Source: Tremella fuciformis
Taxonomy: Eukaryota; Basidiomycota; Tremellomycetes; Tremellales; Tremellaceae
Direction: 5' to 3'
DNA length: 64,000 bases
Assembly (NCBI GenBank): GCA_032768795.1
Contig: CP136491.1
Coordinates: forward strand, 1,984,001-2,048,000
Made by a program: the position numbers and the translations under genes. Below, piece after piece: positions 1-15,440 of this stretch. The notes beneath the pieces are model-generated. The model made no database searches. It was not told where the DNA came from and saw only the letters and a list, made by a program, of their open reading frames with translations. Each line of letters opens with the position of its first letter. Position 1 is the first letter of the stretch.

Positions 1-47
1 TTGTGGAGAGGAGAGCGCAGTGCGGTACCGGTCCGTGGTCACGTTAC

Positions 48-183
48 TATGGCGGGCCGGCGGCCTCATATTACTTTCTGAGTGGCGATTTTTACCTTTC
101 CATTCAGACTTGTCTTCACTTCCATTTTTTACGCGTCATATGCATGCTACGGCCCTCAAACCAGCACCAAACGAATCAGTGCA
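48..183. repeat. Left terminal inverted repeat of integrase transposon
   Basis: Imperfect inverted copy of 15300-15434. Shared blocks include TATGRCGGGCC, GGCCTCA, GCGATTTTT, ACGCGT and a long block (about 144-183) centred on ACCASCACCAAWCG. It starts directly after CGTTAC and ends about 60 bp before the proposed start of the integrase gene, so it probably contains that gene's promoter. Confidence 0.75.
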
Positions 184-243
184 TCATTCTACGCGTCGAT
201 AGACCCCAAAAACGCCTCTGGACGACGTGTGGAACGTTGTTAA

Positions 244-1540
244 ATGGTGGGTTGAATGATCGCTCGGGGAACGAACAAAACTGACATTCAAGACCGACAT
301 ATCGTCACTCTCTGACCATGAGATCGCCTGTATCCAGCAGAATGTTGCCCACTATGCCTCCCAGGCCACTCTCTGGGTCGACACGAGCCCCCCACAGCGC
401 GACCAGACCGCTTTACCCCGTCTCATCGCCTCTATCACCTCCCTCATCACGGATCTTCGGGCTGTCGAGATGGCCCTTCCTGCTCAGGTGTTTGTGCCGC
501 TGCACATCCACCTGACACACGTGCAGGACATGCTCAAGGACGCCCAGAGGTCCGCAGACACCCTCTTGGGCAAGAATTCCATGCGGACGGCACATACGCT
601 GGAGTACAGCGGCGTCGCCGGCCGTCCAAGGATCGTCTGCTCAGAGCAGATGATTATCGATCTACATGACCTCGGTATGACCGAAAGACAGCTTGCAAGG
701 CATCTAAACATCTCTCGGGCCACCCTCCAGAGGCGCAAGCATGCCCTGGGCTTGAGCAACAAGCCCCAGGAGGCTTTATTGGACTTGCAGGTGCAGGCGG
801 TGAGCATCACCTTCTGGTCTCCGTCGATCATTACGGGCCACCAAAGCGTTTCTGACTCGCAGGAAGTTGATAGATGTTGGAAAGAGGGCGGTGGAATGGA
901 GGGATATCGTCTGGTCATGGCTGCCTTTGCAAGGAAACGCTTATCGGCCACCAGAGCTCAAATCCGACAGGCCATCCATGACCTGGACTCAGACGAGGCT
1001 AGACGCCGCTTTGCTCAAACGACCACCAGGAGGGTCTACAGCGTCCCATTTGCCAACAGCCTGTGGCATATCGACGGCCATCACAAGCTCATTGACGCCA
1101 AGATCGTCATACACGGCGGGATCGATGGCAAGTCCCGAAAAGTCGTCTTTCTAAAGGCTAGCACAAACAATCGAGCTGCGACGGTCTTTGAGAGCTTCCA
1201 GGCCGCTGTCGAACGCTGTGGGCTGCCCAGCAGAGTCCGCGGAGACTATGGGAAGGAGAATCTTGAGGTCAAAGCGTTCATGGAGGCCAAGCGAGGTAGG
1301 TCTGACGGGCCAAGGCTGGGCTGATTGTTACAGGCCGCGAACATCATGCGTTCATCCAAGGCCCATCTACACGGAACCAGAGGATAGAACGCTTCTGGGT
1401 AGACCTGCAGTGGCGGTGTACATTCCGATATCGCCTGCTCTTCGATCAGTTCAAGGAGAAGGCCATCTTGAGTGTCGACAACCCCTTCGATCTTTGGTGT
1501 CTTCACCTGTGCTACCTCCCAATGCTCAATGCGAGCCTTG
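244..1540 (+). pseudogene. Integrase-core (DDE) transposase, 5' part, interrupted by gypsy
   Basis: This is the first two thirds of a retroviral-type integrase gene of the kind common in basidiomycetes. Proposed exons are 244-246 (ATG only), 293-799, 863-1295 and 1334-1540. The gene continues at 12867-13369. Together the pieces give 1653 nt, or 550 aa, with no frame change at the insertion point. An HTH-like stretch lies near residues 110-150. The catalytic triad is visible: D in WHIDGHHKL, D in RGDYGKEN, and E in NQRIERFW, with 34 residues between the second D and E. It should cut and join transposon DNA in the nucleus. The ATG-only first exon is the least certain point, because no other in-frame ATG precedes residue 60. 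The 38-nt intron 1296-1333 is very short but restores the conserved region. The gene is broken by the gypsy element, so it is probably inactive here. Confidence 0.75.
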
Positions 1541-2108
1541 TGTCACGCCTGGGCTCCCTTGGGTAGTGACAAAGGAGGAACGGAGCAAGAATGTTGGGGC
1601 TGTAACCCAACGAAGTCGTCACTGGCTCGTCGAGCAAGGACACGGACTAGGAGGTTCGACTCCGGCGAGGTCGAACTTGACCGAATGGAATCGGACTGGG
1701 ATGAGGGACTGGGACTGGAGGGGAAGTCACTGGGAGATGTGAAACTGATCCATCGCTGGGGCATCTACGAGAGAGTCGCGGGTTTATATATACAATAGGC
1801 GTTCAGGTGAACGCCACAGGTGTTCGGGTGATTGTTCGTGTGAACAATCAAATACTACTTCTTCTGGAAGGCGTTCATGTGACCAAAGGGGGTCGGGTGA
1901 ACGCTGCTTGCGTTCAGGTGAACGTGGCAGGCATGTCGTCCAAGGCTAGTGTTTGTTCAGGTGAATGGGACCTGTGTTCGAGTGAACACTTGGGTGAACA
2001 GTGATGTCGTGGGTAGATGTCCCAATGATGCGGAGTCGGAGCAAGGCGAAGATTACTTGAAGTTGAGTCGAAGGGCGGAGCAAAGTCGGAGTTTGGTCGT
2101 TCATGACA
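1541..2108 (-). repeat. Gypsy 3' LTR (element orientation)
   Basis: 568 bp with ends TGTCACG...CATGACA on the plus strand. It matches 12294-12861 by eye without differences. It contains a TATA-like stretch near 1783-1795 and a series of GTTCAGGTGAAC-like palindromes between about 1800 and 2000. Confidence 0.95.
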
Positions 2109-2149
2109 GGAGCTCCCCCTCTAAAGGCGAAGTCCTCTGAGCCTGGAGC

Positions 2150-2899
2150 TCAAGTCTTTTGGTGTGCCGAGTTTGGCGGGAAGTGGTGTCGATGGTTGCG
2201 GATATGTTGTCGACGGAATGCTTTGTAGGCCATGGTGTCAAAGATGTTTTCCCATGGTTCCCATGAGTCATGGGCATCGGAGTAGTCCTTCCAGTGGACA
2301 AGGTAGTCATAACCATTGTCTTCACTGATGCGAGAGTCGATGATCCGGTCGATGATGTATTCTTCTTGACCTTGGATCTCGATTTTGGGCGGAGGGTCCT
2401 GCTGTTGATGTTGATGTCCTGGTCGGACAGGCTCGAGCAGGTTGACATGGAAGACGGGGTGGATCGGAAGTGTCGGCGGAAGATCGAGTTTGAATGCAAG
2501 TGGCGAAGATGTTGTGCCAATGATGGTGTAGGGACCCAACATGCGTTGGTCCAACTTGAGAGAAGGTCGGAGCGAAGTGATGTTTCGTCTGTTGAGGAAG
2601 ACTGAGTCGCCAATTTTGAATGTCGGAGTGGAATCTGAGTTGGTGATGGCTTTGGCTCGCTTGTTGAAGTGGCGGACATAGCTGGCCTGTGCCTTCTCAA
2701 GATTGGAGTGTAGCTCCTTGTGGATTTTCTCGAGTGATTGGAGGTGCGAAGTTGCGGCTGGAACCGAAGAAGGTGGTGGAGATGCCGGAGAGAGCGGGTG
2801 GTAACCATAATTTGCTTCGAAGGGACTGTGTTGGGTGGCGGAGTGTGTCGAATTGTTATAGGCAAATTCGGCAATGTCGAGGATTGTTGACCAATTGTC
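2150..2899 (-). pseudogene. Gypsy integrase C-terminal part and chromodomain
   Basis: This is the end of the gypsy pol gene, cut off from the rest by the copia insertion at 2900-2904. The integrase reading resumes as DQDNWSTILDIAEFAYNNS, then shows the conserved HPVFHVNLL segment. It ends in a chromodomain with EYIIDRIIDSR...YLVHWKDY...DSWEPWENI and stops at 2150. Chromodomains of this type direct integration to particular chromatin. The reading frame is uninterrupted within the segment. Confidence 0.85.
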
Positions 2900-2904
2900 C
2901 TGGT

Positions 2905-3222
2905 CGACGGAATCTTAGCTCTGAGGCAATGGGATTCCGGTCACCTGTTGCCCGCTCAGCACTTGCTATGAGTGATGCATTCGGACTTACCTGTTGCCCG
3001 CTCAGCACTTGCTATGAGTGATGAGGAGGGCAACAGGCGGCGGCATTCTACAAGGTCGTCGAGGGTGTCGGCGTTATAAGCGGAGTTATCGTTGGTGGCA
3101 GCTTCTCTGCCTCGTCGAGGGTGAACCTCGTCGAGGCACAACCTCGTCGAGGATCGAGTAGCCTCGACGAGGTTACTCGAAGATGAGTCAAGCTCATGTG
3201 AGCGTACCACCTATTTCCGTCG
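2905..3222 (-). repeat. Copia 3' LTR
   Basis: 318 bp, CGACGG...CCGTCG. It contains a direct repeat of about 35 bp (ACCTGTTGCCCGCTCAGC...) and several CCTCGTCGAGG palindromes. Same sequence as 7632-7949, and as the solo copy at 44527-44844 apart from at least one base. Confidence 0.95.
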
Positions 3223-3241
3223 CCTCCCCTCGCGAGCATGT

Positions 3242-6200
3242 CTATTGACTCATCTGCCCTCCTTCTCCTTGTCTTTCCAATCCCAGTAACTGCCGGAGCT
3301 GTCTTGTCTTCTCGGCCGAAAGGGTCTTGGTCAGGATGTCGGCTCGATTGCTGTCCGTTGGTGTGTATTTGAGCTCAAGCAGACCACCAGCTTGATGCTC
3401 TCGTATCCACTGGGCTCGCATGTCGAATGCTTTGTTCAACTTGAACCCGTGTTGATGTTTGGCCAGTTGAATGGCCCCATTGTTGTCGTTGTAGATGGGC
3501 ACTGCTCCATCTGGGCCTAGGTCGAGGTCGTTCAACAGTTGCCTGAGCCATATTGCCTCTTTGCCCGCTTCTGTCGATGCAAGGAGCTCTGCCTGTGTCG
3601 TCGACAGTGCGACTGTCGGTTGTCGCCTGCTTTTCCATGATACGATGCCTCCGTAGGTGTTGAAGATATAGCCAGTTGTTGATCGGCGTGTATCGAGACA
3701 TCCACCCCAGTCTGCGTCCGCCCATCCCAACAGTGCTCGTCTCCCTCCATGAGCATCGAAGGTGAGAGCAAGATCCGAGGTTCCTCGAAGATACCTCAGT
3801 AGGTGCTTTGCGGCCCTCCAATGCGCGAGTGACCATTTGCTTATGAAGCGACACAGCAGTGAGGCTGCGTAGGCGATGTCGGGTCGGGTGATAGTGGCGA
3901 TATAGAGGATTGACCCGGCGAGTGCAGGAAACGGTTTGTCTCGAGCCTCCTCGACCTCCTTTGGCGTAGCCTCGACGAGCTTTGCGTCTGGCAAGATTGT
4001 CTTGCAGGCTTTCCCGGTTTCACCGAAGCGTTGAAGAACTGCCTCGATGTAGTGCTCTTGTGATAGGTACATCTTCTTGTTTGGCCTGTCTCGGTAGATG
4101 TTGATACCGAGGAAGTATGAGACCGGTCCTTGATCCTTGCACTCAAGTTCCTTGTCGATTCTCCGCTTGATCTCGTCGATTGTTGATCGATCGTTGCCGG
4201 CGATGAGCATGTCGTCAACATGGACTGAGATCATGCACCGCTTGTGTCCTTGTCGCAGCGAGTAGATGCATGGGTCCGCTAGGGTCGGTTTGAAGCCTAG
4301 CTCCCGTAGGAACTCGTCGAGGCGTTTGTTGAACAAGTGCGGTGATTGTCGGAGACCGTATAATGACTTCCGGAGGTGCAGGACGTGATCGGCAGCGATG
4401 TCGCTACCTTCTGGTGGCTCGATGAAGATGTCCTTGTCGATATTGGCCTTGAGGAATGCGCCGATGATGTCGATTTGGTCGCATTCCCAGTCGAGGTAGT
4501 TAACGATGGTGAGGAATAGGCGGAATGAAGACTTGTGGGTGACCGATGCAAAGAGTTCGTCGAAATCCCGTCCTGAGACTTGTTGGAACCCTCTCACGAC
4601 GAATCTAGCCTTGTATTGGCTTGCTTTGCCCGTGTCCCCGTCGATTTTGCGGGTGAAGACCCATTTGCCTGTAAGGGTGCGGTGGTTCTCTCTGGGGACT
4701 TTCTCCCACACTCCGTATTTCTCCATCTTTGTCATCTCCTCGTCCATGGCCCTGTTCCACTCCTCCCAGTCTGCAGCTCGACGAGCTTCGGTGTATGACT
4801 GAGGGTTGGTGAGTGACTGGGCTGATAACGCGTGCTCGATGGCTACTCGGTTATAGTCCATGTCGATGTCGTGCAGAGGGTGATGACTGGGCTCTTGACC
4901 TGCTAGTCTCCCGGACCGTCTTGGTTCATCTGCATCGGCCTCTATGGGCTGGTTTAGCCGACGATCTGGATCCTCTGGTCCGTCGTCGGGGTTCGGTTCT
5001 GGGCTCGGTGCATCCTCTCGAATGTATTCGTTGGCCCAGCCTCTCCCTTGCCTTGGCACGGCTTGGGGAGGTATGTCGTCCATCTCTTCCCTTTGTTCCT
5101 CTTCTTCTGGTGCCTCCCCTGCCTCGACTATCTCGTTCAGCTCGATTGATGTATCGTCATCCTCGTCGAGGCTCGTCGATGCTTGTCGAGGTTCAGGTTG
5201 AGGCGGCTCCAGAATCCGTCGCGGTTCATCTGAACGTGGCGTTGTCTTCTTGCCCGTGATGAATGTAACGTCTCGACTTGCGATGACCCTGTTGGTTTGG
5301 GTCAACACCTTGTAGCCCCAGCTCCCTTCTGTGTATCCCAGCAGTCGACCGCATTGACCCCGCTCGTCGAGCTTTGATGCGGGGCTCACAACTCGATAGA
5401 TGCAGTGTTGGCCAAATGGCTGCATTCCTTCATATCGTATGTCAATGTCGTGATGTGGTCGAAAGAGAGCGACAGGGATTTTTCCTTGGGAGTCTGGTAG
5501 CCTGTTTCTGGTGAAGACTACATATCGTAATGCGTCGACCCAGAATTGACTTGACAGGTTCGAGTCCGCGAGACATGTGCGGATGTCATTGAGGATGGTG
5601 AGATGGACGCGCTCGACTCGACTGTTTTGATTGTGTGCGTCGGTCGGCGTGAGGGTATGCTCAATTCCCTTGCTTTTACACCAGTGGCTGAATTCCTTGC
5701 TCGTGAACTCGCCTCCTTGGTCTGAGCGGATGGTCTTGACCGTTCGATCAAGCTGATTCTCTGCCAACTTGATGTAGTCTTGTAGTGCTTCGGCTGCATC
5801 CGACTTCTTCTTGATTGGTATAGCTTGCACAAATTTGCTATGGTCGTCGTAGCAGGTGAGGAAGTATTGGAAGCCTTCTCTCGACTGGACGGTCGCTGGT
5901 CCCCATAGATCGACTGATACCTCGACGAGGGGTTTGCCGGCTCGACGCGGGTTAGGTAGAGATGCCGAGCGCGTTGCCTTCCCTTTCAGGCAATCCATGC
6001 ATTCGACTCTCCGAAACAATCCCGTCCACTTGGCGCCTAGCTTCCCCTCTTTCCCGAGCTCCCAGACCTTCCTCATGTTCGAGTGACCTAGGCGCTTGTG
6101 CCAGGTGAGGAGGCGGTTGTCTTCGGCTTCAGTGTTTTCTCTTGCCTGAAGTGCTCGGTGAATGCGCGAGGTGGTGCGTACCGGTGTGTCGTCTACAACC

Positions 6201-7534
6201 CATAGGTTGCCGAGCTTCTTGCCCCGGAGGATGACCTTTCCTTTCTCGACCAATGTAGCCGAGTCGCTCGAGAAGCGCCAATGGGTCCCTGTGTATGGAC
6301 CGAGGCGCTGTGTTGAGAGGAGGTTGTGCGAGAATGATGGAACGTAGAGGGCGTTGTTGTACCATACGTTGTTGAAGGTGAGGCGGCCGGAGTGTGTAGC
6401 TTCGACAATCGATCCGTCTCCAATTTGGATCTTGACGGCCTTGTCGAGTTTGGTGAGATGTGAGAGAAGGTGCTTGTCCTTGATGAATGGACTGGTGGCA
6501 CCGCTGTCGATGATGATGGAGGTGGATGGGAGGTTGTCGTTGGCGTGTAATGCAATCTCCGTCGCATAATAGCCTTCCTCCTTTGTCTCCCTCGACGAGC
6601 CTCTCTTGTTCTCACTCGATGAGTCATCCCCTGACTCCATCTGCTCTCTTGCCTTCTTCGCTTGTCCTCCCTGCTTCCTTCCCTTGGCTGCTTCCCTGGC
6701 CGACCTTTGCTCCTGGATGTGCTTCGGCACTCCAATCACTTTCCAGCACTCATCTGTGGAGTGCCTCCCCTGATCCGGATGGTGGATGCATCTCTTGCTT
6801 GCCGGTTTCTGCAGAGATTTGCTGAGCATCCCCATCTCGTTTACGCTCTCGCCCTTTTGTTGACGTCTGCGATGTTCATCGGCGACCCTATCGATAACCT
6901 CGTCGAGGTGGATCTTGTTCGACGAGGTCCCTGAGTAGAAGGTCGATGCGAGGAGGCCGTATGAGGACGGTAGGCGACGGATGGCGGCGTATGCGCCAAT
7001 CTGGTTGGCGAATTGCTCAAGGGTGAGCTTGGAAGTGATGGCGGAGGAGGTGATTTCGGCCAGTTGCGACCGGATAGCTGTGAGATGAGGTTCGGGGTCC
7101 TCATTCTCTGGGATGGTCTCGCCAAATATCGATGACCATAATTCGGCTAGGCGAGATCCGTTGTCGGCCCCATATGTGGTGACCAGATGATCGTAGAGCC
7201 CCTTCGGTTGAGGATTCTCGAAGTCGATCAGGTTCGAGGGAAGCTTGTTTTGGACAGTCTCTGTCAGACTGCCGTAGAGAGTGGAGAGGGCGGTGGACTG
7301 CTCCTTCTCATGCTCGTATAGAGCAACTGCTCTCTTTGATGTCTCGGCTGCTGTCGCCGGACTTGACACTGGATATCGAGCCTCGACGAGTGCCCGAATC
7401 GCTGACGCGTCCTTGGTGATGTGGGGTACGAGACCGGCGGATCCGAGGACGACTCGAATCTCGCGCACCCACTGGGCGTAGTTGTCGCGCCCGTTGAGCT
7501 TGCGCTCCTCTTTCACCGTCTGCACAGATGGCAT
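3242..7534 (-). CDS. Copia gag-pol polyprotein
   Basis: One uninterrupted ORF of 1430 codons holds the whole Ty1/copia order. Gag is at residues 1 to about 330 (with a His/Cys cluster CIHHPDQGRHSTDEC in place of a clean CCHC knuckle). Protease has DSGAT near residue 342. The integrase zinc finger has HKRLGH and CMDCLKGK, and its core has VDLWGP, IRSDQGGEF and VERVHLT. Reverse transcriptase has DIIGAFLKA and SVHVDDMLIAG (VHVDD in place of the usual YVDD). RNase H has GWADADWGG and STTQAELLA. A single gag-pol frame is normal for copia. Acidic linkers lie between integrase and RT. No lesion is visible, so the product is probably functional. Confidence 0.95.
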   Translation of the reverse strand: MPSVQTVKEERKLNGRDNYAQWVREIRVVLGSAGLVPHITKDASAIRALVEARYPVSSPATAAETSKRAVALYEHEKEQSTALSTLYGSLTETVQNKLPSNLIDFENPQPKGLYDHLVTTYGADNGSRLAELWSSIFGETIPENEDPEPHLTAIRSQLAEITSSAITSKLTLEQFANQIGAYAAIRRLPSSYGLLASTFYSGTSSNKIHLDEVIDRVADEHRRRQQKGESVNEMGMLSKSLQKPASKRCIHHPDQGRHSTDECWKVIGVPKHIQEQRSAREAAKGRKQGGQAKKAREQMESGDDSSSENKRGSSRETKEEGYYATEIALHANDNLPSTSIIIDSGATSPFIKDKHLLSHLTKLDKAVKIQIGDGSIVEATHSGRLTFNNVWYNNALYVPSFSHNLLSTQRLGPYTGTHWRFSSDSATLVEKGKVILRGKKLGNLWVVDDTPVRTTSRIHRALQARENTEAEDNRLLTWHKRLGHSNMRKVWELGKEGKLGAKWTGLFRRVECMDCLKGKATRSASLPNPRRAGKPLVEVSVDLWGPATVQSREGFQYFLTCYDDHSKFVQAIPIKKKSDAAEALQDYIKLAENQLDRTVKTIRSDQGGEFTSKEFSHWCKSKGIEHTLTPTDAHNQNSRVERVHLTILNDIRTCLADSNLSSQFWVDALRYVVFTRNRLPDSQGKIPVALFRPHHDIDIRYEGMQPFGQHCIYRVVSPASKLDERGQCGRLLGYTEGSWGYKVLTQTNRVIASRDVTFITGKKTTPRSDEPRRILEPPQPEPRQASTSLDEDDDTSIELNEIVEAGEAPEEEEQREEMDDIPPQAVPRQGRGWANEYIREDAPSPEPNPDDGPEDPDRRLNQPIEADADEPRRSGRLAGQEPSHHPLHDIDMDYNRVAIEHALSAQSLTNPQSYTEARRAADWEEWNRAMDEEMTKMEKYGVWEKVPRENHRTLTGKWVFTRKIDGDTGKASQYKARFVVRGFQQVSGRDFDELFASVTHKSSFRLFLTIVNYLDWECDQIDIIGAFLKANIDKDIFIEPPEGSDIAADHVLHLRKSLYGLRQSPHLFNKRLDEFLRELGFKPTLADPCIYSLRQGHKRCMISVHVDDMLIAGNDRSTIDEIKRRIDKELECKDQGPVSYFLGINIYRDRPNKKMYLSQEHYIEAVLQRFGETGKACKTILPDAKLVEATPKEVEEARDKPFPALAGSILYIATITRPDIAYAASLLCRFISKWSLAHWRAAKHLLRYLRGTSDLALTFDAHGGRRALLGWADADWGGCLDTRRSTTGYIFNTYGGIVSWKSRRQPTVALSTTQAELLASTEAGKEAIWLRQLLNDLDLGPDGAVPIYNDNNGAIQLAKHQHGFKLNKAFDMRAQWIREHQAGGLLELKYTPTDSNRADILTKTLSAEKTRQLRQLLGLERQGEGGQMSQ

Positions 7535-7631
7535 GACGGAGGACCACTTCGAGGCTGGCGGTGCGTAGGCAAGGTCGACGAGTTTGTTGACGCGTTCTAT
7601 CTACCGCGACTTGTCGAAGGAGACGTTACCA

Positions 7632-7949
7632 CGACGGAATCTTAGCTCTGAGGCAATGGGATTCCGGTCACCTGTTGCCCGCTCAGCACTTGCTATGAGT
7701 GATGCATTCGGACTTACCTGTTGCCCGCTCAGCACTTGCTATGAGTGATGAGGAGGGCAACAGGCGGCGGCATTCTACAAGGTCGTCGAGGGTGTCGGCG
7801 TTATAAGCGGAGTTATCGTTGGTGGCAGCTTCTCTGCCTCGTCGAGGGTGAACCTCGTCGAGGCACAACCTCGTCGAGGATCGAGTAGCCTCGACGAGGT
7901 TACTCGAAGATGAGTCAAGCTCATGTGAGCGTACCACCTATTTCCGTCG
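7632..7949 (-). repeat. Copia 5' LTR
   Basis: 318 bp, matching 2905-3222. The gag-pol ATG lies 97 nt downstream of it in the element's orientation. Confidence 0.95.
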
Positions 7950-7954
7950 CTGGT

Positions 7955-8829
7955 TGTGGTTGCAATAGGTGCGGAGATATGTTTCCAAGACTTGGTTGAC
8001 TCGTTCGGTCTGGCCATCGGATTGCGGGTGGAAGGCGGTCGAGAAGTTCGGTGTGATGCCAAGACCATTGACAAATGCTCGCCAGAATTGGGAGTTGAAG
8101 ATTGCTCCTCGGTCGGAGACAATGTCGGAGGGTATGCCATGAAGTCGAACAATGTTTTGGCGGAAGAGTGAAGCGAGGTGCGGGGAATCGAATCCTTGTT
8201 CTTGATAAGGGACAAAGTGGGCTTGTTTTGTGAATCGGTCGACGAAGACCATGATTGAGTCGAAGTTGTTCGATTTTGGGAGTTTGACAATGGCGTCCAT
8301 GGAGATTGACTGCCAAGGTCGGGTCGGAATTGGAAGAGGCTGGAGTGGTCCATACGGTTTGTGTCGAGGTGTTTTGTTTCGTGCACAGGTATGACAACCG
8401 TTGACGTAGGTGTTGACGAATGATCGAAGACCAGGGAAGTAATAGTGTCGGGAAGCAAGGTCATAGGTTTTTGCCTGTCCTAGGTGACCTGCAGTTGGAG
8501 CATTGTGAACTTGATGAAGAATGTCGAGGCGGAGTTGGTGATTATCGGGAACATAGACTAGATTGGCGAAGTGGATAACTCCGTTGTCGATGGAGTATGA
8601 CGGAAGTTTGGTTGCAATTGAAGTTGGCGGAGTAAGACGATTTCCCAGATAGGGTCGGATTTGGCGGAGATGAGGGTCGACAAGTTGGAGTTGGCGGATG
8701 CGATCGATGATGGTCGAAGTGATTGCTGAAGATTGTGAAGTTTGACGTTTGCGGTTGGTGGCTCCAATGACAAGTTGACCTGGTTTCAGGAGAGTGTGTG
8801 GAGGTGCTTCAGCAGCTCTACTCCCCCCC
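7955..8829 (-). pseudogene. Gypsy integrase, zinc finger and catalytic core
   Basis: In this frame the zinc-binding HHCC region is visible (CHTCARNK near 8380-8400). It is followed by the core: D in FVDRFTKQAHF, D in IVSDRGAIFNS, and E in GQTERVNQ. The reading ends at YCNHNQ where the copia element is inserted. At its upstream end (about 8823-8830) the frame is offset from the RNase H frame by a run of eight G, where seven would keep the frame open. Confidence 0.85.
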
Positions 8830-8952
8830 CTGAAGGTCTTGACGTCTCGTCAAGGCATCGGGCTTGCCCATTTTGGTGCCAGGCCGGTAGTGAATCTTGA
8901 AGTCGAAGTTGGCGAGAAGTTCTGCCCACTGTGCTTGTCGGCGATTAAGCAC

Positions 8953-10680
8953 TCAAGAGGTGGTGAAGTATTCGAGATTTTTGTGATCGGTGAAAACCGT
9001 GATTTCGCTTGATCCTTCGAGGTAGGATCGCCAATGTTTGAATGCTTCAACAATTGCGAGCATTTCTTTGTCGTATATTTCGTAGTTGAGTTCGGCTGGT
9101 TGGAGTTTCCTGGAGTAGAAGGCGATCGGATGAAGGTTGTTGGAATTGTTGGCAGCTGGATGGGATAGGACACCCGCTATGGCGTAGTCGGAGGCGTCGG
9201 TTTCAAGAATGAGAGATTTGCCGGGCTCGAAGTGTTGTAGGATTGGTGCCAAAGTGAAGGCGGACTTGAGTGATTCAAAGGCTTCGGTGTCCTTCTCTCC
9301 CCATTCAAACTTCACTTCCTTTCGGAGGAGTCGGGTGAGCGGAGCGGTGACCTTTGAATATGACTTGATGAATCGCCGGTAGAAATTGGCGAAGCCGAGG
9401 AAAACTTGAATGTCGTGGACCGAAGTTGGTTTTGGCCAAGAAGTGACTGCTTCAACTTTGCTTGGGTCCATCCTGATTCCCTTGTCCGAGACAAGATAAC
9501 CAAGGAAGTCCACTTCGTGTCGGAAGAAGGTGCACTTCTCTGCCTTCGCCCAGAGTTGATGTTTTTGGAGGCGATCCAGGACTTGTCGGACGTGTCGAAC
9601 ATGATCTTCGCGGGTTTTGCTGAAGATCAAAATGTCGTCCAGATAGACAATGACGAAGATGTCAAGGAAGTCGCGAAGAGTGTCGTTGATAAGATTTTGG
9701 AACGATGCCGGGGCGTTTGTAAGGCCAAAGGGCATGACCAAGTATTCGAAGAGGCCGTAGCGTGTGCGGAAAGCGGTTTTCCACTCATCGCCAGGTTTGA
9801 TCCGGATGAGGTTGTATGCGGCTCGAAGATCGATTTTGGTGAACCAGGATGCGCCAGAGAGGCGGTCGAGTGATTCTTGAATGAGCGGGAGTGGGTATCG
9901 ATTCTTTCGAGTGATCGAGTTGAGTGAGCGGTAGTCGACACAGAGTCGGAGGCTGCCGTCGGATTTCTTGACAAAGAGGATCGGAGAGCCAGCTGGGCTG
10001 GTGCTGGGTCGGATAAATCCTTTCTTGAGGTTCTCCTTGAGGTATTCGTCCAGAGCTTGGAGCTCGACTGCAGACAAGGAGTAGATCGGTCCGAACTTTG
10101 GTTGGGCGTCCCCTTCCAAAGGGATTGCGTGATCATATGGTCCGTGGTCTGGGAGCTTGTCGGAGTTGGATTTGTTGAAGACGTCGAAGTAGGAGTGAAA
10201 CTCGGTTGGGATTTGGGTTTGGAGTGAAGCAAGGTCGGGAATGGTATTGTCGTCATCGTCGCCTGTCGATGGGGTTGGATCGATGAGACCTGAGACTTGA
10301 TTGGCAGATGTAATGCCGAAGATGCTAGCGGTTTTGATCGCTTGGCGGAAGGCTTTCCCGCTGATTAGGGATACCTGAATCGGTCGACTAGATGATTGAT
10401 CGTAGCGCCGAGTGACTGGATGAGGCGGACTTGAAGCGGAGTTGCTTGGCAAGTCGCGGACTGGAGTTGTCGAACATGTCGGAGATGTCGAAGATGTGTT
10501 TTGCGTACCCGAAGTGTCGATACTTGGCGGGTTGCGGACTCGGAGAGGCGATGTTGCCTGTGACTGGAATGGCGTATCTGCATCTTTGCTTGCCTGATGC
10601 ACTGTGCCAGACAGTACTGGGAGGAGAAGACGATGGTCTGGCGGGACCAATCGACGACTGGATTGTGCTGGGATAGCCAT
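8953..10680 (-). pseudogene. Gypsy reverse transcriptase and RNase H
   Basis: Reverse transcriptase motifs are clear: CVDYRSLNSITRKN, LVMPFGLTNAPASFQ, and YLDDILIFS, in which the catalytic box reads YLDD. RNase H follows with ETDASDYAIAGVL and TDHKNLEYF. The ORF stops at a TGA (8953-8955), but the same frame continues with [13 protein letters not shown], the normal continuation of RNase H. The stop is therefore probably a nonsense mutation. The protease frame upstream differs from this frame, and the switch lies within 10365-10680 where both are open. Confidence 0.9.
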
Positions 10681-11198
10681 GGAAGGCCAAGGATGACTGG
10701 ATAATCGCCAAGTGAAGTGATGTCGAAGGAAATCACTTCGGAGGGATCAAGAATGGCGAGTCGGACTGGAGTTGTGTGATGGGTGATGGCGCCGGATTTG
10801 ATTGGTCGACCATCGATAACTTCGATTGGAACGGCTTGTTCCTTTTGGACTTGTTGAATGTTCATGGCGGAGAGGAATGACTTGTTGATGAAGCTGCCGG
10901 TAGCTCCAGAGTCGATCATAGCGTAGGTGTCAAAGGAGGTGTTGTTGAAGGAGAGTGTGATCGGAACACACAGATGCGGGATAGAGTGGTCGGAGGTAGT
11001 GGACAGAAGCGTTGTAGCTGATATTTGATGACCAGATTGGATTGAACCGAAGGTATGGTGCCCAGGTGTGAGCCCCAGAGGTGGGGGCACATCTAGGCCT
11101 GGGGCTTGGTGTTTTTTGTCGGTTCGGAGGTGGATCGTGCGTTGATCGCACTGACTTGAGTAGATCGATTGCTGCCTCGGTTTGGTCGGATTGGACAT
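10365..11198 (-). CDS. Gypsy protease region
   Basis: This holds the aspartic protease core with MIDSGATGSFI and the ILGLPWL flap-type motif typical of Ty3/gypsy. It overlaps the end of gag (11093-11198) in a different frame, compatible with frameshifted gag-pol expression. The last part (below about 10680) overlaps the RT frame, so the true switch point is uncertain. Confidence 0.8.
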   Translation of the reverse strand: MSNPTKPRQQSIYSSQCDQRTIHLRTDKKHQAPGLDVPPPLGLTPGHHTFGSIQSGHQISATTLLSTTSDHSIPHLCVPITLSFNNTSFDTYAMIDSGATGSFINKSFLSAMNIQQVQKEQAVPIEVIDGRPIKSGAITHHTTPVRLAILDPSEVISFDITSLGDYPVILGLPWLSQHNPVVDWSRQTIVFSSQYCLAQCIRQAKMQIRHSSHRQHRLSESATRQVSTLRVRKTHLRHLRHVRQLQSATCQATPLQVRLIQSLGATINHLVDRFRYP

Positions 11199-12118
11199 TG
11201 GCCTGCGCTGTGACCAGGTTTGCCGCAGTAGAGGCAGAGATTGTTCTTGAATCGATGTTCCCTTTCCTGAGGAGTGAGGGGCGTGAATCGTGGTCGAACA
11301 GCATCGATTTCCATTGGAGTTGGAGTGAAGGTCGATGGGTTTTGGGTCGAAGATATCGGAGTGCGAGTGAAGTTGTTGGTCCGTGGCATTGAGTTGATGT
11401 TTGTGATCCGTGCGTGGGTGGTTTGGATGGCGGAGTCGGTGAATCCTCTTCTTCGCTGGAACAGGAGATCATCCCATTTGATGGCATTGTCGATCAAGTC
11501 GGTGATGGTGTCGAAACCATTGGGAGTGAGGAGTTTGTCCTTGACATCCTCCTTGAGTCCATCGAAGAAGGAGTGTCGCATTGCTTCGTCACCCCAGTGG
11601 AGGTGAGCAGCATGGCGCTGGAACTCGGTTGCGTAGTGAGTTGCTGAACCGGTTTGTCGAAGGACCTTGAGTTTTTGGCGAGAGGTTTCAATGATGTTTG
11701 AGTCGCCAAAGATTTTCTTGAATTCGACCTTGAAGTTGTCCCATTGTTGGACCCAGGTAGGTTGTTCGCTCTCTGCAAGGAGCAGATGCGGCATGACCCA
11801 CTGATAGGCCTGGTCCTTCAACAGGTTCGTGACAAATGCGAGCTTCGCTTTGTCGGTCGAGTAGGTTCGGGGTTGAACAGAGAATACCATGTCACACTTC
11901 AGGATGAACTCCGCTGCCTCATCCTTGCGGCCAGTGAAGGCGGTCGGATGTGAGACTTTGGGCTCCTTGCTGAAGGCAACAGGTTGAGGAGTGGGGGTGG
12001 CCATGACCTGGGCTTGGGTGTTGGTCAAGGCCTGCTCGAGTTGGACAATCCGGGCTTGCATAGCCTCAAGGATGTCGTGGTAGTCTTGAGTGTTGGTAGG
12101 AAGTTTGAGGTCGGACAT
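11093..12118 (-). CDS. Gypsy Gag with CCHC zinc knuckle
   Basis: A 341-aa capsid/nucleocapsid protein begins at the first ATG after the LTR and a leader of about 175 nt. The retrotransposon gag core (TAFTGRKDEAAEFILKCD... then WVQQWDNFKVEFKKIFGD) spans about residues 55-200. A nucleic-acid-binding knuckle CLYCGKPGHSAGQC lies near residue 300. Gag packages the element RNA into virus-like particles. The ORF shows no lesion. Confidence 0.9.
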   Translation of the reverse strand: MSDLKLPTNTQDYHDILEAMQARIVQLEQALTNTQAQVMATPTPQPVAFSKEPKVSHPTAFTGRKDEAAEFILKCDMVFSVQPRTYSTDKAKLAFVTNLLKDQAYQWVMPHLLLAESEQPTWVQQWDNFKVEFKKIFGDSNIIETSRQKLKVLRQTGSATHYATEFQRHAAHLHWGDEAMRHSFFDGLKEDVKDKLLTPNGFDTITDLIDNAIKWDDLLFQRRRGFTDSAIQTTHARITNINSMPRTNNFTRTPISSTQNPSTFTPTPMEIDAVRPRFTPLTPQEREHRFKNNLCLYCGKPGHSAGQCPIRPNRGSNRSTQVSAINARSTSEPTKNTKPQA

Positions 12119-12293
12119 GGTGAAGGTGGTCGGATTGTCCTAGAGTATGATCGAAGATGGCAAGTTTGTCGAAGTGTCCTTGAATATTATCGAAGATGGC
12201 AAAGGAATGTCGGTGTGTCGGAATAAAGAGTGTGGTCAATCTATGTAAAGAGCGAAGAAAAACGAGCGAGGACGAAGGGGTAGCGATGGATAC

Positions 12294-12861
12294 TGTCACG
12301 CCTGGGCTCCCTTGGGTAGTGACAAAGGAGGAACGGAGCAAGAATGTTGGGGCTGTAACCCAACGAAGTCGTCACTGGCTCGTCGAGCAAGGACACGGAC
12401 TAGGAGGTTCGACTCCGGCGAGGTCGAACTTGACCGAATGGAATCGGACTGGGATGAGGGACTGGGACTGGAGGGGAAGTCACTGGGAGATGTGAAACTG
12501 ATCCATCGCTGGGGCATCTACGAGAGAGTCGCGGGTTTATATATACAATAGGCGTTCAGGTGAACGCCACAGGTGTTCGGGTGATTGTTCGTGTGAACAA
12601 TCAAATACTACTTCTTCTGGAAGGCGTTCATGTGACCAAAGGGGGTCGGGTGAACGCTGCTTGCGTTCAGGTGAACGTGGCAGGCATGTCGTCCAAGGCT
12701 AGTGTTTGTTCAGGTGAATGGGACCTGTGTTCGAGTGAACACTTGGGTGAACAGTGATGTCGTGGGTAGATGTCCCAATGATGCGGAGTCGGAGCAAGGC
12801 GAAGATTACTTGAAGTTGAGTCGAAGGGCGGAGCAAAGTCGGAGTTTGGTCGTTCATGACA
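12294..12861 (-). repeat. Gypsy 5' LTR (element orientation)
   Basis: 568 bp, same sequence as 1541-2108. It is followed by CCTTG at 12862-12866, the copy of the target duplication at 1536-1540. In the element's orientation this is the promoter LTR. Confidence 0.95.
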
Positions 12862-12866
12862 CCTTG

Positions 12867-13369
12867 AGAACACCGCGACAGACTGGAATAGACACAAGAT
12901 GGACGATTTGGGTGGGCGGAGCCCGGAATTGATGTGGTGGGACAGTAAGTGCGGCCACAGACCGGAAAGACCGCTGATGAAAGGTGTGCTGGACGCCGAA
13001 GCTCGCGGGATTGACATACTTGCCGATCCAGGGGCCATACTACGTGAGGAGGCCGTCCACGGCCCACATGACGATCCCCTGCGGCCGCTGGCGTTCGCAG
13101 ACTACGGGCTTGATGACTATGGACACCGAGCGGACGGTCACATTTCGCAGGACGACCCTTTCCTCGAAGTCCAGCCCGTCCTAGGGCAAGTCCCGCCCGA
13201 GGTGGTCACCGCACTGGAGGATCCTGCATTCCAGGGGGCCCTGCTTGCTCGCATAGGCCCATGGCGGCTTGGAATGGATGATTGGGGTGAGCAGAGGTAC
13301 ATCCAATGCCGAGAAGAAGTGGATGAGTTTCTACGCCGCCAATTTCCGACATTACTCAACCAGTTTTGA
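12867..13369 (+). pseudogene. Integrase-core transposase, 3' part
   Basis: This continues the interrupted integrase gene of 244-1540. The exon resumes right after the second CCTTG copy with ENTATDWNRHKMDDLGG and ends at a stop at 13367-13369. Family members end with a similar region after the catalytic Glu (W-rich segment with PELMWWD, then an acidic tail). The splice-free join keeps the frame exactly. The gene converges on the 511-aa gene, whose stop lies at 13656. Confidence 0.75.
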
Positions 13370-13655
13370 AGCTACATGCATGGGGATTGCCGAGCATGGT
13401 TGCCCGAGACCCGCTGAGCAAGCCAACACTTCATGCATCGCCATCCAGCTTGATTCTGTTGAAGAATGCAAGAAAAGGAGATATCTCGGCCTCACCACCA
13501 TCTCCCCGACATCGATCCCTTCCGTCCTTCTCCCCATCGTCCTTTGGCCTATGTCACTTGCGTGCGAATTGGGGTATCTGCTTTTCAGCCATAAGTTCTG
13601 CAGTTCGCATGGTAACAGAGCCGTTCAGCGATGAGACGAAAGAGCAGACTCGCCT

Positions 13656-15285
13656 CTATCCCATCGTGGTGTTTGCGGCGTTATCAATCATGCCGGCACG
13701 AGCAGAATTGCGGGTCATTCGTGGCATGTGTTCGTTGCGCGGTGCGAACAGTGGTGACCACTCGATTCGCTGTCTCTTGCCTCCTGGGGTCCGCCGACCC
13801 TTTGATGACGGCGATACCAGGTCGACAGGAGCATCCTGGGCTGTGCCAGCAGCCGAGGACACTCCGTCAGACCTGGTATTGCCGCCTGGGGCTTGATCCT
13901 TGTTGCCTTCGGTCCCTATAGTCTCAAACCGTCCACCACCATCAGAGGGCGTCTCCGACAAGGCAATGGGGCGTCCCAGGACGCCGCCCGCGGCCGAAGA
14001 GACCGTGCCAGCGGTCTCTTCGGCCACGGGCGGCAGAGACCAGGTGTCCACCGTCCCTGACGTGAGACGCCTAAGAGAGTCCACCGCATTCGCAGGCGAT
14101 GTCTGTCCGGCCTTGCCCTTGGTCTTATGGCCTAGGACTCGATCCTTGAGGGCTTGATTGTTCGATTTGCGGGCTTGGGCTATCTCGCACTGTCGAACCG
14201 CTTGATTCCAGTCCCGGGTAAAGTCTTCTAGCTCTTCCTCGCCATCAAATGGAAGCCGCAGGGGAGTAATGATCCCTAGGCCACCGTCCGCAAAGAAACG
14301 ATCCAGGTTCCGTGCAGCGGTAGACAGGCCTCGGGGACCAAGGTACAGGTTTTGACCGCCGTCATCACTCCCAACCCATCTGCAGAGTGAGCCACAGCCT
14401 CACAGACCGCCTGCAGTGACGACGAACGAGTAATCAATGACTTCAAGCAGCGAGACGGCCGGCAAGGCGTTTGCCACCTCCTTGCGGACGTCTTCAATGG
14501 TCATACCATAGGTGAAGACTGGGTAGCCCATGAACTGACGCCTCCTGCACACCGTGTACAAGATCTCAAGCTTGGCCTCGGTCCACGGGGCGTTATCGGC
14601 AAAGATCGTTGTTGCGGGGACGTAAATGACCTGGTAATGAGCTCATACCAACCACAGACCAACAACAGAGACCTACCCCGCCTTCAGGCTGATTGCCAAG
14701 CTGGACGGCATGATCCTTTGCGAGGGGCACATGGACCGGCTTGGCGACGGCCTGGGGCTGCTCGGCACGCTTAGCAGGCTCACCTGTGGTCTTCTGAGCA
14801 GCTTGGCGGCCGCCGATAGACTTTCTACCTCCCTTTGAAGCAGCCCAACCAGCTCGAATGTTGCTGGCGGACTGTAGGGCAAACCGCCCGGTAGATTCGG
14901 CTCGAACTTGGTCGAGAGGCTGCCGCAGAGTCCCCTCTGTGTAGAAAGACTTGTTTGACGCCTCTGGGGTAGGTGTGTGACAAGCTGTAGTCACCAGAGC
15001 GCCCGTCATGGTTGATGGAGTGACAAAGGACGATGGGGTGCTGGACTCGGGGACAGCCTGCGCGTCACCAGTGAGGCCCAAAGCCTTCAAAACTGCTGGA
15101 AGGGCTCCAGGAGCGCTCTGGGCAAGCTGAGCAACGACTCTGGTGAGCTGTAGATCCATTGGGGACTGTCTATGAGCATTGACAAGCGATGGGAGTCCGT
15201 AGAACATCAGGCAACCCACCATGTCGGGTCTCCCTTCCGCCGAAGTCGCCTCAGAGGACGTATGCATGGTATTGACGCGTTCCAT
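13656..15285 (-). CDS. Unknown 511-aa protein of the integrase transposon
   Basis: Three exons are proposed: 15285-14677, 14630-14428 and 14379-13656, with introns of 46 and 48 nt. The total is 1536 nt in frame. The start ATG lies just inside the right TIR. Residues 1 to about 200 are low-complexity and basic near the end. The middle is ordered: VIYVPATTIFADNAPWTEAK, then TYGMTIEDVRKEVANALP, then LYLGPRGLSTAARNLDRFF. The C-terminal part is charged and probably disordered, ending in a basic stretch. I do not recognise the family. Its position, facing the integrase gene inside the same pair of TIRs, suggests an accessory transposition protein or target/DNA-binding partner. That is inference only. 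Confidence 0.65.
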
Positions 15286-15299
15286 TACGTGTAATCGGG

Positions 15300-15434
15300 T
15301 GCGCTGAGGCGATTGGTGGTGGTCTCAAGGCTGTAGCTTCAAAACTGACAGAGATAACGCGTGAGATGTTAAAGCTCAGATGGAATGTGGTGTGAAAAAT
15401 CGCTCATCGATTTTGAGGCCTGTGGCCCGTCATA
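15300..15434. repeat. Right terminal inverted repeat of integrase transposon
   Basis: Read on the minus strand it starts TATGACGGGCC and aligns with the left end for about 135 bp with scattered mismatches and small gaps. CGTTAC follows at 15435-15440. The ATG of the 511-aa gene (15285) lies just inside it, so the repeat probably carries that gene's promoter. Confidence 0.75.
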
Positions 15435-15440
15435 CGTTAC

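Follow-up and report, generated by a model that had tools for sequence, protein, structure and literature searches.

Among described transposons, those closest to the element reported here belong to the IS3EU superfamily, which is grouped with GingerRoot and is characterized by TA..TA ends in every case, 6-bp target site duplications in most, and no HHCC motif (PMC10045372). TET+ IS3EU elements of rust fungi have TAYGG..CCRTA ends, terminal inverted repeats (TIRs) of >30 bp, 6-bp duplications and an alpha-kinase gene in opposite orientation, with a TET/JBP gene between the transposase and alpha-kinase genes (PMC12730594). Styx of Zymoseptoria (7.9 kb, 36-bp TIRs) carries four genes, namely one for an IS3EU-type transposase, two with GATA and CCHC motifs and one with DUF3577, two of the four being genus-restricted; its copies were searched at a 6-bp duplication setting, both duplications quoted are 6-mers, the available text reports no insertion-site preference, and the ancestral IS3EU element was inferred to encode two proteins (PMC10853768). 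Elsewhere IS3EU is mentioned merely as a repeat class (PMC12411881, PMC8955403, PMC11645255) or, in the available text of PMC12210899, is not mentioned. Here we describe a two-gene DNA transposon from a 64,000-nucleotide stretch of the Tremella fuciformis genome (GCA_032768795.1, contig CP136491.1, positions 1,984,001 to 2,048,000), the whole of which is called the window; the element is very probably a fungal IS3EU transposon with a convergent accessory gene that is real, selected and specific to one clade.

Results

The window copy of the transposon occupies positions 48-15434 and is flanked on both sides by CGTTAC (Table 1); the segment between the duplications opens TATGGCGGGCC and closes GGCCCGTCATA. 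Its TIRs are imperfect, with a likeness that extends to about base 137, and when the 150-bp ends are aligned, 107 of the 165 columns are identical (12.6 standard deviations above 200 shuffles). An earlier note on this DNA had proposed a transposon with TIRs and a 6-bp duplication at these same positions, and the analysis bears this out. The length of about 4 kb that it gave agrees with the transposon's own sequence (4061 bp with a Gypsy-type insert excluded), although the span of 48-15434 is split by that insert, which itself carries a Copia-type element.

The host genome (28.1 Mb, 11 contigs) was searched with both ends, yielding 17 places for the left end and 11 for the right, with every right end paired with a left end; the 6 left-end matches without a paired right end were left out of the duplication counts. 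All 11 two-ended copies (the window copy and 10 further ones) start with TATGG and end with TCATA, the terminal bases that the window copy has at 48 and 15434. Exact 6-bp duplications flank 10 of the 11, with a different hexamer at each site (CGTTAC in the window, and CTTATC, CTGCGG, CAAGGC, GGGACC, CTTTAC, CGCGAC, CCTGAC, GTCACC and CTCAAC). The complete copies of about 4 kb that the earlier note had suggested looking for are represented by three uninterrupted ones, at C1:3812117-3816186 (4070 bp), C3:2419475-2423581 (4107 bp) and C6:379246-383343 (4098 bp); the remaining eight, among them the window copy, are 9.1 to 32 kb long and therefore carry inserts. Two regularities were observed besides: the fifth base of the ends is unequal (TATGG left, TATGA right) in 11/11 copies and five lineages, and C stands at position 1 in 8/10 and at position 6 in 9/10 of the duplications.

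For the empty-site search, flanks of the ten sites were joined with one hexamer and run against the genome, and 40 of 41 candidates were scored. Nine of the ten joined sites matched their own two halves only, apart from C3a, for which the flank of a tandem duplicate of that site was matched as well. The joined site C4b (CAAGGC) matched 19 further places; all 19 matches cross the junction and cover 44 to 66 query bases, with identities of 80-93%. Two of these places (L064 and L065) were fetched; each reads through uninterrupted with a single CGAGGC, and they are alike at 140/149 positions. The C4b target is therefore a dispersed repeat (~150 bp or more, without an Rfam match at E<=0.1), and its other copies are a related empty site with a single 6-mer, of the kind that the earlier note had suggested looking for.

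The transposase combines a helix-turn-helix with a DD34E RNase H-like core, and its true start probably lies further 5' of 470. The H2C2 (HHCC) model gave no match in the window pieces or in six relatives at E<=10, and a predicted RNase H-like core is present in the structure model of a relative (P0004). A public protein database search returned 288 relatives, found in basidiomycetes, Rhizophagus and several animals, and one family unites the fungal, Rhizophagus and animal transposases (29-45% identity to one reference). Scanning of viral contigs with the transposase alignment gave 16 pattern matches, 0 of them confirmed.

The second gene, hereafter the partner, had been described as an unknown protein of 511 aa; the gene is real, and is now modelled as four exons on the minus strand encoding 493 aa. 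Partner proteins of five lineages align over their full length, are 46-61% identical to that of the window, and share strongly kept short motifs, including GYP.F.YG, LDRF..DGG, TRNSARAG and a run reading TP..K..RIE.SPLF. We read the conserved basic motif near the C-terminus as a possible nuclear localisation signal. Public protein searches returned a single relative, P0001, whose splice pattern matches that of the window partner. P0001 is identical to the copy at C3 at 478/479 residues over three exon blocks, and its source is therefore probably the species sequenced here. Searches of this type need shared 5-mers, so that fast-evolving proteins can escape them, and one of the two scored only 7997 candidates; the same database yields the 288 transposase relatives, and sparse fungal coverage is thus not the whole reason for the lone match.

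Partner proteins had no Pfam or NCBIfam match above chance level, the weak matches taken as chance being one from Pfam (0.0098, 1/5 members) and three from NCBIfam (0.13-0.28, one member each), and the partner profile had no match in the PDB. Identity as an alpha-kinase was rejected, since none of 5 partner proteins matched the Pfam alpha-kinase model at E<=10 (in a search of the genome with PF02816, the alpha-kinase model, the control itself matched nowhere). Structure prediction from a four-row alignment failed (mean pLDDT 38.5), and viral contigs scanned with the partner gave 2 pattern matches, 0 confirmed. We call the partner family undescribed on the strength of limited literature searches, which found no description of it, nor of integrase-core transposons in Tremellomycetes.

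Loci were grouped by hand, 26 transposase matches being assigned to 23 loci and 17 partner matches, obtained by using most of the last exon as query, to 13 loci. A convergent transposase on the opposite strand is present at 13/13 partner loci in this genome, and no partner copy away from a transposase was found here with that query. That two convergent genes, one for an integrase-core protein, move together is thus upheld; constant pairing, which had also been suggested, holds from the partner's side, but only 13 of the 23 transposase loci have a partner. Among transposase loci at >=81% identity the partner is present in 11/12, the exception being C10:48500.

The ratio of nonsynonymous to synonymous substitution rates (dN/dS) between the five lineages was 0.05-0.12 for the transposase (one exon, 10/10 pairs) and 0.21-0.66 for the partner (three exons, 30/30 below 1), with dS of ~0.5-2.1, partly near saturation; for lineage B, the partner values come from the C2 copy and the transposase values from the C6 copy. 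Purifying selection acts on both genes in all five lineages, and the partner changes far more quickly than the transposase. Values below 1, together with the constant pairing, identify the partner as a selected gene of the element.

A second transposase family with the same Pfam domain and 53% identity to the window transposase was observed at C1:5935584, C5:2098582 and C4:1187077. Its common sequence likewise starts TATGG (its right end and duplication were not located), the last-exon query found no partner at any of the three loci, and an unrelated downstream open reading frame (ORF) lies there in the same orientation as the transposase. Since this family lacks the partner within the same genome, the partner is specific to one clade, and its constancy for all integrase-core genes is rejected. 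The earlier note's proposal that the ends and the partner define how the integrase-core family moves therefore applies to the other copies, which share both, but not to the whole family.

The transposase gene of the window copy is interrupted just past the catalytic core by the Gypsy-type element, whose long terminal repeats (LTRs; 1541-2108 and 12294-12861, 568 bp) are identical to each other; the transposase segment beyond it opens with the 5-base target duplication of the Gypsy insertion. This insert is missing from copies L018 and L020, which read through the site uninterrupted, with CCTTG present once. With its gene cut in this way, the window copy is incapable of making a full transposase. 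The repeats of the nested Copia-type element (2905-3223 and 7632-7950, possibly with the target duplication included) are also identical. At least 37 further places match a ~950-bp Copia stretch of L060 at 98-100% identity, the window's among them (40 of 251 candidates scored), and so many places at this identity indicate that the family was recently active. Contig C10 (0.83 Mb) holds 8/23 transposase loci, 6/10 partnerless loci and every stop-codon-bearing transposase match, and has two left ends in tandem, at 326320 and 328637, separated by 2.3 kb.

Table 1. Coordinates of the transposon, its genes and the nested retrotransposons in the window
Feature	Position	Strand	Evidence
Left target site duplication CGTTAC	42..47	.	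Exact repeat at 15435-15440
Left TIR, ~137 bp, opens TATGGCGGGCC	48..184	+	z 12.6 vs shuffles; TATGG start in 11/11 two-ended copies
Transposase exon with helix-turn-helix	470..799	+	Pfam HTH_7 1.2e-6; splice site from comparison with uninterrupted copy L022
Transposase exon with rva_4 integrase core, first two catalytic D	863..1295	+	PF24764 3.2e-35; alignment of 19 relatives
Transposase exon with catalytic E (NQRIERFW), truncated by Gypsy insertion	1334..1540	+	Alignment of 19 relatives
Gypsy-type LTR retrotransposon	1541..12861	-	Ty3_capsid, Retrotrans_gag and RVT_1 domains; 5-bp duplication CCTTG
Copia-type retrotransposon inside Gypsy	2905..7950	-	RVT_2 1.6e-57, rve
Remaining C-terminal part of transposase gene to stop	12862..13369	+	Frame continues in L018 (without insert)
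Partner last exon, basic tail with TP..K..RIE and TRNSARAG motifs	13656..14379	-	Multi-lineage alignment
Partner third exon, conserved core PWT..GYP.F.YGM	14428..14630	-	Multi-lineage alignment
Partner second exon	14677..15165	-	Splice pattern as in P0001
Partner first exon, 22 aa	15220..15285	-	Analogy with public protein P0001
Right TIR, ~137 bp, inward TATGACGGGCC	15298..15434	-	TCATA end in 11/11 two-ended copies
Right target site duplication CGTTAC	15435..15440	.	Sequence match to 42..47

Discussion

The earlier note regarded the element as of unrecognised type, a view we abandon here, as published IS3EU features match it closely (PMC10045372, PMC12730594, PMC10853768). Like IS3EU/GingerRoot elements, it has TA..TA ends (11/11 copies), a 6-bp duplication (exact in 10/11, none in 1/11) and an integrase-like DDE core (PF24764 with a helix-turn-helix) without HHCC, the first catalytic D lying far from the N-terminus; unlike those described, with Repbase entries compared by description only, it has a convergent partner of a family for which no description was found. 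With the TET+ rust elements it shares 6-bp duplications, TIRs of >30 bp, TAYGG at the left end and an opposite second gene, whereas its right end is TATGA in 11/11 copies, so that TAYGG..CCRTA does not apply, its partner has no alpha-kinase match, and no third gene was seen in the window element. It resembles Styx in its IS3EU-type transposase, its 6-bp duplications, a two-protein content like that proposed for the Styx ancestor and a lineage-restricted second gene, and differs from it in its size (~4.06 kb), ~137-bp TIRs and two genes.

Several points weigh against this assignment. The published phylogeny could not split IS481EU from IS3EU/GingerRoot (PMC10045372), and our placement is by ends, duplication length, domains and literature rather than by comparison with Repbase IS3EU sequences, with the animal and fungal relatives of the transposase lending it indirect support. 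The right end reads TATGA, whereas rust IS3EU is reported to have TAYGG; 1/11 two-ended copies, that at C3:2061950, is without a duplication (CTATAG vs CGACGC); and 10/23 transposase loci, all three of the second family among them, are without a detectable partner. As to the accessory gene, the partner has no convincing domain or PDB match, and its structure prediction failed.

Polinton/Maverick elements, which are large and carry a protein-primed DNA polymerase, were ruled out by the three uninterrupted copies of 4070-4107 bp with two genes. Ginger1 (4-bp duplication and HHCC) and Ginger2 (4-5-bp duplication; PMC10045372) were ruled out by the 6-bp duplications and the lack of HHCC. IS481EU was rejected on duplication length (6 bp at 10/11 vs near 4, 15 or 25 bp); the ends alone cannot exclude it, since TAT..ATA fits its loose terminal signature TNT..AYA (PMC10045372). 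A new integrase-transposon superfamily distinct from IS3EU would accommodate the TATGA right end and a partner that has no known domain and is unlike the alpha-kinase, TET/JBP, GATA, CCHC and DUF3577 genes of fungal IS3EU-type elements; we consider it very unlikely, given that TA..TA ends, a 6-bp duplication, a DDE core without HHCC and an opposite second gene are the published marks of IS3EU, and that a single family holds transposases of fungi, Rhizophagus and animals, at 29-45% identity to one reference. What is new here is the partner gene; the kind of element was already known.

For this IS3EU element, by analogy with DDE relatives, the transposase would act on the ~137-bp TIRs, cleaving at TATGG/TCATA, and strand transfer of the ends into target DNA would take place at points offset by 6 bp, giving the 6-bp duplication. 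The partner's functions that we infer are those of a cofactor or of an anti-silencing factor. We lean slightly towards the former, a nuclear, DNA- or transposase-binding protein that would help mobility. Harbinger two-gene elements have a transposase and a separate accessory protein within their TIRs, the accessory being Myb/SANT-like and the duplications 3 bp; their transposase is of another superfamily, and the analogy extends solely to how the partner could work.

The main alternative, to which we give appreciably less credence, is that the partner counters silencing, as TET/JBP is proposed to do in the rust elements. Fungal IS3EU elements are described as capturing proposed anti-silencing genes (PMC12730594), and evolution much faster than that of the transposase is expected under host conflict; against this, no enzymatic domain was recognised in the partner, and the two-ended copies of every one of the five lineages have it, which would also fit a cofactor needed at each jump. 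That the partner was taken up from the host as a passenger without a role in mobility seems improbable: second genes do vary between lineages of fungal IS3EU-type elements, and an unrelated ORF lies downstream of the transposase in the second family here, yet the last-exon query found no partner gene away from a transposase in this genome, and purifying selection at dS of ~0.5-2 across five lineages is hard to explain for a gene without a role.

Returning to the cofactor, we put forward as a tentative extension that the partner is the first of a new class of transposon accessory proteins, a rapidly evolving cofactor confined to one clade on which the DDE transposase in these IS3EU elements has come to rely; if so, their mobility would depend on a lineage-specific protein without relatives elsewhere. 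The copies described here provide a multi-lineage IS3EU example with defined ends, an uninterrupted target and a selected accessory gene without known relatives. As the second genes of fungal IS3EU-type elements vary (alpha-kinase, TET/JBP, GATA, CCHC, DUF3577 and this partner), the purpose of the second gene slot becomes testable.

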